In this document: piece after piece, positions 2,668-8,302 of the stretch
How positions within the stretch are numbered: position 1 is the first letter of the stretch
Layout: each line of letters opens with the position of its first letter
IMG/VR virus record: IMGVR_UViG_3300006805_000197
Coordinates: 1-21,036 of that record
Length of the DNA: 21,036 nt
Strand: one strand, 5' to 3'
Origin: a virus
Notes under the pieces: generated by a model
Databases searched by the model: none
The model's input: only the letters and a program-made list of their open reading frames with translations
What the model was told of the DNA's origin: nothing
Made by a program: the position numbers and the translations under genes

Positions 2668-4506
2668 ATGTCGACACAAACACAAACTCCACTGCCTAAG
2701 ATGACCGAACAGCAAATCAAAGACGAAGCAATACGAATCGTAAATCAAGAAAGGACAAGATGGCAGGATGCAGTTTGTTTTGTAACAGACCGTGTAGCGT
2801 TTCAGATGCGTCCGCTCATTCGTAAGTTACGTAAGAACTATTGGGGTATATTTGATATTCAAACAGACCCACTCACAGGACGTGATAAAACATGGGTTCC
2901 ACTTACTCGTGTTGCAGTTGATGCAAACGTAAAGAACGCCGATGTTGATACAAAGGACATTTCAACACGTGCAAAGAATAGTAAAGGATACACAGAAGCA
3001 AAGGTAGTGCGTGCGGTGCTCACAAACCACCTCCAGACCACTTATTTTGGTGAAGATATCGACCAGTTTATTTTGAATACGGCAATTGACGGTACTGGTG
3101 TGATGAAGTTTATTAAGGCATACGACAAGGAAGGTAAGCCATACTGTAAGCGTGTACAAGTTGACCTTTTGAATGTATATATTGACCCTAACGCAAAGAG
3201 TATTCAGGACGAGTTTCGTTTTACAGAGCGTGCACTAGCTCTACCTGATGAAATTGCAGCAATGGACTCATGGTGGGATACAGAAAACCTCATTGGCTCA
3301 ACAACGGTGTCGAGAATTGATGGAAATTATACCTCTACAAGCAATGGTACTACTGCATCATACCGGGATTTGTGGGAAACGTGGGGTAAAATTCCTAAGT
3401 ATTTGCTTACTGGAAATCCAAAAGATAAGGAATTAGTTGAAGGACACATTGTGGTATCAGGCCTAGAAGCTGCTGACCCTAAGTGTCACTACATTGAAGG
3501 AAACCCAGATGGAATCAAACCATACGAGGAATGGCAGTGGAAAAAGATTGCAAATCGCTGGTACGGTCTCGGTATTGCTGAACGCCTCCTTGCTCTCCAG
3601 GCATGGATGAACACAATCGTGAATATTCGCATTAACCGCTCATACGTTTCTCAGTTGGGCTTGTTCAAAATCCGCAAAGGTTCAGGCATCACACCACAAA
3701 TACTCTCAAGACTTGGTGCAAACGGTGCAATTGTGGTTAATGACCCTAGTGATATCGAGCAGATGGCAGTGCAAGAAGCATCTCAAGCTTCATATGCTGA
3801 TGAAGACAAGATTAATGACTGGGCACAGCGTGACTCAGGTGCATTTGATATTTCAGTTGGTGACCCAACCCCAGCGTCAAAGCCTGCAACTACCTCAGTT
3901 ATAGAAAACAACGCTGCAAAAAGTGGCTTTGGTCTCATTAAGGATGGATTGGGTGCGTTCATTGAGCGCGCGGCTGACCGTCATATCCTCCCAGTGCTAG
4001 GCGAGACGATTAAGGTAAACGATGTTATTGAGCTTGTTAGTGACGACACAATGAATGAAATCATTGAAAACATTGTTGCTGCCGATGCTGATAATGAGCT
4101 CGAAAAGTTGTGGGCACGTGGCATTATTCCATCTCAAGAACAGATGATGCAGTCTATTGAAACGGCTAAGAAGAAGCTATCAGGCCGCCCTAACATTTTC
4201 CTTAAGACAGTGCGTCGAATGCTTGTGAAGCACACATACACACGTGTATTCGTTACGAACGAGACTATTGACCCTTCAGTGATTGTTTCAAACCTCACGT
4301 CAATCCTAAAGTTCCTCCCACAGCAGGTAATCCCAACTATTGTAAAAGAGATTACAGACCTCATGGGCCTCTCTATTGATTTCCCTCGTATGACCGAACA
4401 AGCTCCAGCACCACAGCTGCCACCACAGCAGGCAAATCCACAAAGCCCGTTACTTAGTGCAATGAATAACCCTCAGCCACAATCGACGGAAGCTAACACA
4501 TTATAG
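2668..4506 (+). CDS. Portal protein
   Basis: The portal is the twelve-part ring at the head vertex through which DNA enters and leaves. The 612-residue length and the position directly after terL and before a scaffold and capsid gene are as expected. The N-terminal 100 residues are helical and charged, with W-G-I-F-D; the middle contains F-I-L-N-T-A-I-D-G-T-G-V-M-K (about 133-150), a turn that recurs in P22/SU10-type portals as the A-x-x-G-T-G-x-x-K stretch, followed by V-D-L-L-N-V-Y-I-D-P. A long helical part (about 300-480) would form the stem and crown. The last 40 or so residues are proline- and glutamine-rich and probably disordered. Assignment rests on motif character and gene order. 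Confidence 0.82.
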   Translation: MSTQTQTPLPKMTEQQIKDEAIRIVNQERTRWQDAVCFVTDRVAFQMRPLIRKLRKNYWGIFDIQTDPLTGRDKTWVPLTRVAVDANVKNADVDTKDISTRAKNSKGYTEAKVVRAVLTNHLQTTYFGEDIDQFILNTAIDGTGVMKFIKAYDKEGKPYCKRVQVDLLNVYIDPNAKSIQDEFRFTERALALPDEIAAMDSWWDTENLIGSTTVSRIDGNYTSTSNGTTASYRDLWETWGKIPKYLLTGNPKDKELVEGHIVVSGLEAADPKCHYIEGNPDGIKPYEEWQWKKIANRWYGLGIAERLLALQAWMNTIVNIRINRSYVSQLGLFKIRKGSGITPQILSRLGANGAIVVNDPSDIEQMAVQEASQASYADEDKINDWAQRDSGAFDISVGDPTPASKPATTSVIENNAAKSGFGLIKDGLGAFIERAADRHILPVLGETIKVNDVIELVSDDTMNEIIENIVAADADNELEKLWARGIIPSQEQMMQSIETAKKKLSGRPNIFLKTVRRMLVKHTYTRVFVTNETIDPSVIVSNLTSILKFLPQQVIPTIVKEITDLMGLSIDFPRMTEQAPAPQLPPQQANPQSPLLSAMNNPQPQSTEANTL

Positions 4507-6447: not shown

Positions 6448-6508
6448 AGTTGTTTGTGCCCGTACTCACTCCAGAATGAGACGTATGGGCACAATTCTGG
6501 AAACAACT
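6448..6508 (+). promoter_or_regulatory. Structured intergenic RNA element between capsid and chaperonin
   Basis: Three perfect or near-perfect complementary pairs lie nested and crossing in 61 bases. P1: AGTTGTTT (6448-6455) with AAACAACT (6501-6508), 8 pairs. P2: GTGCCCGTAC (6456-6465) with GTATGGGCAC (6483-6492), 10 pairs with one G-T wobble. P3: CCAGAAT (6471-6477, in the P2 loop) with ATTCTGG (6494-6500), 7 pairs. P2 and P3 cross, so they form either a pseudoknot or, more likely given the single base between 6492 and 6494, two alternative hairpins inside the shared P1. No T-run follows, so a plain terminator is unlikely. Function unknown. Confidence 0.65.
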
Positions 6509-6522
6509 TAATTAGTTAATTA
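6508..6522 (+). repeat. Short AT-rich direct repeat before the chaperonin start
   Basis: TTAATTA occurs at 6508-6514 and again at 6516-6522 with one base between, ending 6 bases before the chaperonin ATG at 6529. It makes the start region fully A/T, which keeps the start codon unstructured; a protein-binding site is also possible. Confidence 0.4.
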
Positions 6523-6528
6523 AAAGAT

Positions 6529-8028
6529 ATGAAAGAAATAAGAATCGACAACGAAGCTAGGCAAGCGCTCAAGCGTGGTGCTGACTTTGTTGCTAACATT
6601 GTAAAGAAAACTCTAGGGCCTGATGGTCGTAACGTCGCAATTGGTAGTCAGTTTGTACACCCAGTAATCACGAATGACGGCGTTTCTATTGCCCGTGCCA
6701 TTGAGCTCAAAGACCCTATCGAAAACTTAGGCGTGCAGATTATCCGTGAGGCATCACAGAAGACAAACGACAAGGCAGGTGATGGCACTACTACTGCTAT
6801 CACACTTGCACAGGCAATCATGAACGCTGGTTTTAATAAGTTAGAATCAGATGACAAGTTATTTGTTAACAGTAAGAAAGAAAGCAGTCTCGACATTAAG
6901 CGACAAATAATTGATGCAGGTGCACTTGTTATTTCTGAACTCAAAAAGATGGCAAAACCCGTAAAAGCACTCGAAGATTTACAAAAGGTTGCCTTCATTG
7001 CCGTTGAAGATAAAAAACTTGGTGACCTTATTGCAGAAGTTGTAGACAAAGTTGGTGCAGAAGGTGTTATTAAGGTTGAGGAAAGCGACGGTGTGGCTGT
7101 TGAATATGAAATCACCGACGGTATGGAAATCCCAAGTGGCTACATTTCACCTTACATGGTAACGAATGACGAAACACTTGAATCTGTCGTTCAGCGCGCA
7201 AATATCCTCGTCACAAACGGTAACATTGCCTCACCTGCCGAGCTTTTACCTATCATTCAAGAGCTCCAGAAGGAAAGTATTAGCGAGCTTGTAGTGTTTG
7301 CTGAAAATGTCGACAAGAATGTGATTGAGATTTGTAACCTAAACCGTATTAAGGGTGGTGTGAAGGTTCTCATTGTAAAGCCAAGCCTATGGAATAAGGG
7401 TATCTTTGAAGATATCGCCACGGTATCAGGTGCAACACTCATAGACGTGAATACTGGCATGGTGTTGTCAAAAGCAACACGTCAAATGTTGGGTAAAGTA
7501 ACCTCGGTTGTTTCTACCTCAGATAAGACTGTTATCACTGGTGGTAAGGGTGACCGTGAGACAGCGATTAAGCGTCTAAAGGCAGAGCTCAAGACAACTA
7601 AAGCCCCATTTGATAAGGAAAAGATTGAAGAACGCATTGCACGCATTGCAGGTAAAGTTGCCCTAATCAATGTTGGTGCTGTGTCTAACACAGAACGTAA
7701 GTATTTGAAGGATAAGATTGATGATGCTGTAAATGCCACACAGTGCGCACTAGCAGAAGGTGTTGTAGCGGGTGCAGGACTTGCTCTCAAGGCGGTATCA
7801 GAGAAGCTGAAAAAGAACATTATCACTGAAGCAATCCTTGCACCGTATAACCAGATACAGGAAAACAGCGGTGGACTAAAGATAGCTGAATCAGTCATTG
7901 ACCCTGTAAAGGTCACACGCACAGCGGTCGAAACTGCGTGTTCAGTAGCAGCAAACCTCCTCACCATTGAGGCGGCAATAGTAGACATACCAAAGAAAAA
8001 TGAAAGCAATACAGGGGAAAATAATTAG
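6529..8028 (+). CDS. groEL-like: GroEL-like type I chaperonin, divergent and shortened
   Basis: Group I chaperonins enclose and fold proteins with ATP. This 499-residue copy keeps T-L-G-P (28-31), T-N-D-G-V-S with Asp50, G-D-G-T-T-T (84-89, with the Asp85 that corresponds to catalytic Asp87 of E. coli), Asp399 (matching Asp398), V-V-A-G-A-G (412-417) and I-D-P-x-K-V-T-R (457-464). The apical domain has G-Y-I-S-P-Y-M (204-210) and L-L-P-I-I, matching hydrophobic substrate-binding sites. It is about 50 residues shorter than E. coli GroEL: the equatorial stem-loop carrying the N-A-A nucleotide contacts and the G-G-M tail are missing, and the Lys51 position is Asn49. No groES is in the window. 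Placement after the capsid gene suggests capsid folding. Confidence 0.93.
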   Translation: MKEIRIDNEARQALKRGADFVANIVKKTLGPDGRNVAIGSQFVHPVITNDGVSIARAIELKDPIENLGVQIIREASQKTNDKAGDGTTTAITLAQAIMNAGFNKLESDDKLFVNSKKESSLDIKRQIIDAGALVISELKKMAKPVKALEDLQKVAFIAVEDKKLGDLIAEVVDKVGAEGVIKVEESDGVAVEYEITDGMEIPSGYISPYMVTNDETLESVVQRANILVTNGNIASPAELLPIIQELQKESISELVVFAENVDKNVIEICNLNRIKGGVKVLIVKPSLWNKGIFEDIATVSGATLIDVNTGMVLSKATRQMLGKVTSVVSTSDKTVITGGKGDRETAIKRLKAELKTTKAPFDKEKIEERIARIAGKVALINVGAVSNTERKYLKDKIDDAVNATQCALAEGVVAGAGLALKAVSEKLKKNIITEAILAPYNQIQENSGGLKIAESVIDPVKVTRTAVETACSVAANLLTIEAAIVDIPKKNESNTGENN

Positions 8029-8302
8029 GACGGTAAACCGTTACATTAAAAAGAACTACCTCGAATATGAAGCGTTTTGTGAATCAATGCGTGACATTCG
8101 TCTTGTGCAAAAGAATGAAATGGCGTCTACAGAAGACCCGAACGCATACATGAAGCAACTTGCCTACCAAGTGCCAGCGACACTCTATAACCTCATTGAG
8201 AGCAATCTTAGTACGGAGGAATTCCAGTATTTTAAGTCTATACCAGGCACAGTGTGGTTCGCTAAGACGTTCCCAGAATTTAGCCCAGCAAGTAAAATAT
8301 AA
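8000..8302 (+). CDS. Hypothetical protein overlapping the chaperonin gene end
   Basis: A 100-residue protein whose ATG lies 29 bases inside the 3' end of the chaperonin gene, in another frame, so translation is probably coupled. The N-terminus is basic and helical (I-I-R-T-V-N-R-Y-I-K-K-N-Y), the middle is helical and amphipathic, and the C-terminus has an aromatic stretch (W-F-A-K-T-F-P-E-F). It does not look like GroES: there is no early beta strand with the R-P-L-x-D-R-V-x-V pattern and no mobile-loop glycine run, although the length is similar. I do not recognise a family. Being coupled to the chaperonin, a partner role is possible but unproved. Confidence 0.65.
   Translation: MKAIQGKIIRTVNRYIKKNYLEYEAFCESMRDIRLVQKNEMASTEDPNAYMKQLAYQVPATLYNLIESNLSTEEFQYFKSIPGTVWFAKTFPEFSPASKI

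Follow-up and report, generated by a model that had tools for sequence, protein, structure and literature searches.

In RNA phages of the MS2 type, the coat/replicase operator is a simple hairpin whose loop and bulge letters are conserved and to which the coat protein binds. The element described here, which follows the major capsid gene of a DNA phage, resembles this operator in being an RNA structure between coat and next gene that, at the start codon, would limit the downstream product. It differs in being a pseudoknot in which hardly any letters are conserved, and no conserved protein-contact letters were seen.

Among structures with a comparable fold are the exoribonuclease-resistant xrRNA-D elements of dianthoviruses and tombusvirids, which block a 5'-to-3' exoribonuclease. 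They have a P1-L1-P2 architecture in which letters of L1 and L2B are nearly invariant (PMC6299227). As in xrRNA-D, a hairpin uses its apical loop to pair with the 3' flank (here as helix P3), the helices show little sequence conservation and an intergenic position is possible (PMC6299227), whereas in the present element an outer P1 encloses the knot, P2 is uninterrupted and near-invariant loop letters are absent; it also comes from a DNA phage. The repZ pseudoknot of plasmid ColIb-P9 activates translation from a position just upstream of the ribosome binding site and is regulated by an antisense RNA (PMC8383071). In our set, a start codon adjoins the element in about half of the cases, but a Shine-Dalgarno (SD) sequence is not used and no antisense partner was seen. 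For some T7-like phages (phiIBB-PF7A), frameshift pseudoknots at the capsid end have been proposed (PMC3080317), which likewise lie directly past the capsid stop, whereas here the slippery site is absent and the spacing is variable. Intrinsic terminators after phage major capsid genes, finally, share the genomic place and are actual replacements of the element in some relatives; in contrast to these, the present pseudoknot carries no U-tract after its stem.

We regard xrRNA-D and translational pseudoknots such as repZ as the nearest known shapes, yet the element falls under the full definition of none of the systems compared, and its topology, an enclosed, cis-acting RNA pseudoknot with minimal linkers, is undescribed. 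A search of Rfam 15 gave no family above its gathering cut-off, the best match being a chance-level hit to potC on the opposite strand (20.5 bits versus a cut-off of 44), and no description of this pseudoknot was found in the open-licence papers searched. A known RNA family or ribozyme was consequently rejected, and an earlier note on this DNA, to whose reader no RNA class of this layout was known, agrees with these results.

Architecture and conservation of the element

In the window, by which we mean the whole stretch of 21,036 nucleotides that was analysed, the element occupies positions 6448-6508 of the plus strand, beginning 4 nt past the stop codon of the major capsid gene (SU10_MCP, PF17236; 5523-6443, plus strand), whose 3' end it follows in all relatives, and ending 20 nt short of the ATG of a chaperonin gene, exactly as the earlier note had placed it. 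Direct reading also bears out the three complementary helices, with P2 and P3 crossing, that had been proposed for this gap; the helix lengths of 8, 10 and 7 given for P1, P2 and P3 depart from our reading only in two T-A pair assignments. From 5' to 3', the strand consists of the P1 5' arm AGTTGTT (6448-6454), the P2 5' arm TGTGCCCGTAC (6455-6465), linker L1, TCAC (6466-6469; usually 5 nt in relatives), the P3 5' arm TCCAGAAT inside the P2 loop (6470-6477), linker L2, GAGAC (6478-6482; usually 3 nt in relatives), the P2 3' arm GTATGGGCACA (6483-6493), the P3 3' arm ATTCTGGA that crosses P2 (6494-6501) and the P1 3' arm AACAACT (6502-6508), which abuts or overlaps the next start codon in many relatives. 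P2 thus pairs TGTGCCCGTAC with GTATGGGCACA, including one G-U pair, and P3 pairs TCCAGAAT with ATTCTGGA. All three helices can be read directly and covary in relatives; P2 is in addition recovered by folding, and P3 as well as both linkers by the layout parse described below. The folding z-score of the stretch is -4.3, a value that counts nested pairs only and leaves P3 out. The noted absence of a T-run also held, and a terminator search found none at the element; intrinsic termination at this site was rejected on the grounds that a U-run is missing and that the 10 nt past the P1 3' arm are A-rich over all members.

Relatives were gathered from IMG/VR by scans that used the capsid protein and three alignments of capsids; an alignment in which distant capsids were mixed proved too diverse for use as a search query. 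Removal of duplicates left 82 distinct capsid-3' gaps, chosen by capsid homology only. A parser that seeks nothing but the layout P1-P2-L1-P3-L2-P2'-P3'-P1' found it in full, at a cut-off score of at least 48, in 46 of these gaps, two of them (L221 and L073) being weak parses, versus none of 2050 dinucleotide shuffles, which confirms a real structured RNA element in the gap between capsid and next gene. Typical members have a P1 of 6-9, a P2 of 8-10 and a P3 of 9 pairs, with 5 nt in L1, 3 nt in L2 and 0-1 nt at each of the three remaining joins. The layout is retained between subgroups, whereas the letters are almost unrelated, and owing to this near-absence of sequence conservation the element is missed by ordinary homology searches.

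Compensatory changes among relatives, set beforehand in the earlier note as the test of P1-P3, were found in all three helices. When eight members were aligned without gaps (A3), 95.3% of the pair cells were kept versus 67% in shuffled alignments, with none of 500 shuffles reaching the observed level, and 19 of the 24 pairs showed two-sided changes. P3 was paired throughout, with two-sided changes in 7 of its 9 pairs, and is supported as well as P2. When the partner columns were slid by 1-3 positions, pairing fell to about 38-47%. As the A3 members were picked partly for pairing, the shuffle test on the 82 gaps is the cleaner proof of existence; the covariation nonetheless supports selection on all three helices. 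With respect to the strand, a parse that tolerates G-U pairs beat one that tolerates A-C pairs in 42 gaps and lost in 3. This result indicates that it is the sense-strand RNA that is conserved and constrained, and led us to reject a minus-strand explanation.

Several variants accompany this picture. Diverged members in the capsid gaps of L005 and L027 resemble ordinary H-type pseudoknots in which P1 is absent and the third linker is longer, and perhaps represent a step between a hairpin and the full element. In L002 (3930-3967) and L003 (3930-3964), an extra hairpin lies directly upstream of the element; its 5' flank and loop match by GAGT/ACTC, so that it is perhaps a second small pseudoknot. 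In many elements, e.g., those of L024, L030 and L099, folding with P3 open predicts a weak mini-stem within the P2 loop, in which CTA is joined to TGG beyond a TT/TT internal loop; this mini-stem may be the reason for the T-rich L1.

Compatibility of the three helices

The earlier note had considered a full pseudoknot with P1 closed to be strained and two alternative hairpins to be more likely. Neither view is supported by our results. In a coarse model of rigid A-form P1, P2 and P3 with chain-length and clash limits, all three helices fit at once with zero violation for the geometry of the window. The canonical geometry (P2 of 9, L1 of 5, L2 of 3) fits as well, with residuals of about 1 Angstrom, and its summed squared violation rose from 6 to 25, 71 and 137 when L2 was cut to 2, 1 and 0, to 38 and 72 when L1 was cut to 3 and 2, and to 47 when P2 was extended to 11. 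Within this model, an L1 of 5 and an L2 of 3 would be about the shortest linkers that permit the full knot in the relatives. Observed linkers at the geometric limit are what one would expect from selection for the complete pseudoknot. In some members, e.g., L040, L052 and the window, a longer P2 goes with a longer L2.

From our point of view, it is improbable that the element represents a two-state switch, in which P2 and P3 form alternative hairpins within a permanent P1 and are toggled by a protein or by translation. P2 and P3 do have loop strands in common, and in some elements P1+P2 and P1+P3 are just 1-3 kcal/mol apart, as would suit such a device. However, computed stabilities favour P1+P2 in 40 of 43 elements, the margin exceeding 5 kcal/mol in 22, and the mutually exclusive helices that define a bistable switch were not found, since the coarse rigid-body model accommodates all three. 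This joint fit in space, the linkers near the shortest possible length and the stability difference all speak against alternative hairpins. A dimer formed in trans by kissing of P3 is also conceivable, but would leave the limits on P2 length and linkers without a reason.

Genomic place, neighbouring genes and the next start codon

A strict scan over 466 kb of loci found the element at the capsid 3' end only, barring opposite-strand reads of two copies, one weak chance match and the second element of L001 described below. In nine near-complete contigs (338 kb), there is a single strong copy per contig, without exception at the capsid 3' end, and one borderline extra match (score 48.4) overall, so that a genome-wide repeat was rejected. 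In L001, an HNH-type ORF lies between two elements (3943-3999 and 4390-4446), each just ahead of a start codon; the two are alike in shape and unrelated in sequence, the second resembles the element of L004, and the HNH-type gene starts with TTG 2 nt past the first.

The next gene is mostly a conserved gene of about 100 aa (8000-8302 in the window, plus strand) and otherwise a chaperonin, an HNH gene or a small zinc-ribbon gene, the GroEL-like chaperonin (6529-8028, plus strand) being the next gene in this phage and a few relatives only. Since the next gene varies and the element stays at the capsid 3' end, the element is not bound to the chaperonin, and control specific to that gene was rejected. 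Of the suggestion that the element sets the ratio of capsid to chaperonin, it is therefore the general part, a ratio of capsid to next gene, that stays as the best guess.

The gap between the element and the gene of about 100 aa (6509-8028 in the window, and its counterpart in relatives) is an insertion hot spot, with a chaperonin in the window and, by sequence, in L033, L051 and L055, an HNH-type gene in L001 and a zinc-ribbon gene in L002 and L003. The protein of about 100 aa gave a confident helical predicted model (pLDDT 88), for which a comparison with the PDB found no match. In L060, L061, L062, L063 and L150, the capsid gene itself is broken after about 145-155 residues by an insert, which in L063 carries an HNH ORF and is perhaps an intron; an Rfam search of these inserts found neither a group I nor a group II intron. 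A search for the host, in which bacterial genome contigs were compared with the capsid and portal, found no relatives.

If start codons are taken as the first ATG, the distance from the P1 3' arm to the next start is -3 to +2 nt in 17 of 36 loci and exactly +1 in 9, with the ATG lying within P1 in L048 and partly overlapping it in L011, L030, L031, L057 and L099. In about half of the relatives, as in the window, the next start follows 4-34 nt (once 100 nt) past P1. The distance from the capsid stop to P1 spreads from -2 to 60 nt and is 0-5 nt in 8 of 39 loci. This variable spacing on the upstream side bears on a role in processing or recoding, i.e., self-cleavage, an RNase site or a frameshift where the capsid gene ends, for which the proposed T7-like pseudoknots just past the stop offer a precedent (PMC3080317). 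We consider such a role highly improbable, as besides the inconstant spacing the element lacks conserved catalytic letters and an Rfam ribozyme match, and a slippery heptamer was present in 0 of 43 loci, where the shifted frames are short and scattered; -1 frameshifting was rejected on these grounds.

SD sequences showed no enrichment at the start codons of the window and related contigs (GC 0.30-0.59), and SD sequestration was rejected accordingly. Instead, starts of these phages are preceded by A at -6 to -2 and T at -1. The P1 3' arm (AACAAT) resembles this preferred context, and its match to the pattern suggests that P1 masks it. In the SD-less Flavobacterium johnsoniae, mRNA structure and an A-rich context tune initiation (PMC6847099).

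Possible roles at the end of the capsid gene

In our best explanation, the element is a compact, cis-acting three-helix pseudoknot on the capsid mRNA, with P1 enclosing the crossed P2 and P3 and all three formed at once; its structure, strand, place and single copy are established by computation. With regard to its function, we tentatively favour, at somewhat less than an even chance, that it separates capsid from next-gene expression and acts mainly on translation initiation. The initiation region of the next gene would be buried in P1/P3, such that free 30S subunits would rarely start there and far less of the next protein than of the capsid protein would be made. Initiation could perhaps occur mainly when the weak P1 is opened by ribosomes that terminate at the capsid stop close by.

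In some relatives, the place of the element is taken by an intrinsic terminator (L038, L092, L097, L104, L119 and L134, and also the annotated phages L069 and L071) or by a plain hairpin (L009, L012, L014 and L017), which suggests that some barrier is wanted at the capsid 3' end. Together with the ATG spacing and the SD-less starts, these replacements would fit low expression of the next gene relative to capsid, and we count the double element of L001, each copy preceding a start codon, for an initiation barrier. Against it, the start is not directly buried in the window and in about half of the relatives, and the window, with its chaperonin start 20 nt downstream, illustrates such burial less well than other loci. 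Genome compactness alone may also account for part of the tight 3' spacing, and terminators and hairpins at the same site fit a transcript-end or 3'-protection role equally well.

The latter role constitutes the main rival, which we consider unlikely but worth taking seriously: after cleavage or decay further downstream, the pseudoknot would stop 3'-to-5' exonucleases and the capsid mRNA would live longer. It would be well suited to this, as P2'-P3'-P1' form a single continuous, fully paired 3' strand, the shape is kept without sequence and one copy per genome trails the capsid gene regardless of what comes next; the replacing terminators and stable hairpins would share the 3' protection. However, the spacing is tighter on the side of the next start codon than on that of the capsid stop, and the second element in L001 comes after the HNH gene. 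As a second benefit, an initiation barrier of this shape could also halt such exonucleases where the capsid message ends.

By analogy with the coat/replicase operator of RNA phages, the site between capsid and next gene could further suggest an operator bound by a phage protein, e.g., the capsid protein, for feedback control. This is very improbable, given that almost no unpaired letters are conserved for sequence-specific contacts and that plain hairpins and terminators can replace the element.

One could speculate, at low probability, that closure of P1 brings the capsid stop and the next start together, so that a terminating ribosome would be handed to the next gene, or withheld from it, across about 60 nt of folded RNA. 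The element would then stand for a shape-selected, almost sequence-free, minimal-linker class of RNA that serves as punctuation between genes in a large uncultured phage group.

Overall, the present study adds a strongly supported structured RNA family, absent from Rfam and found in over 40 distinct phage sequences, whose topology is unusual in that all junction linkers are about zero and whose sequence is hardly conserved. Being short, the element offers a clean model for the limits that linker length sets on pseudoknot geometry. It further makes testable how dsDNA phages obtain hundreds of capsid copies versus few copies of the next protein from one late mRNA in SD-less hosts.
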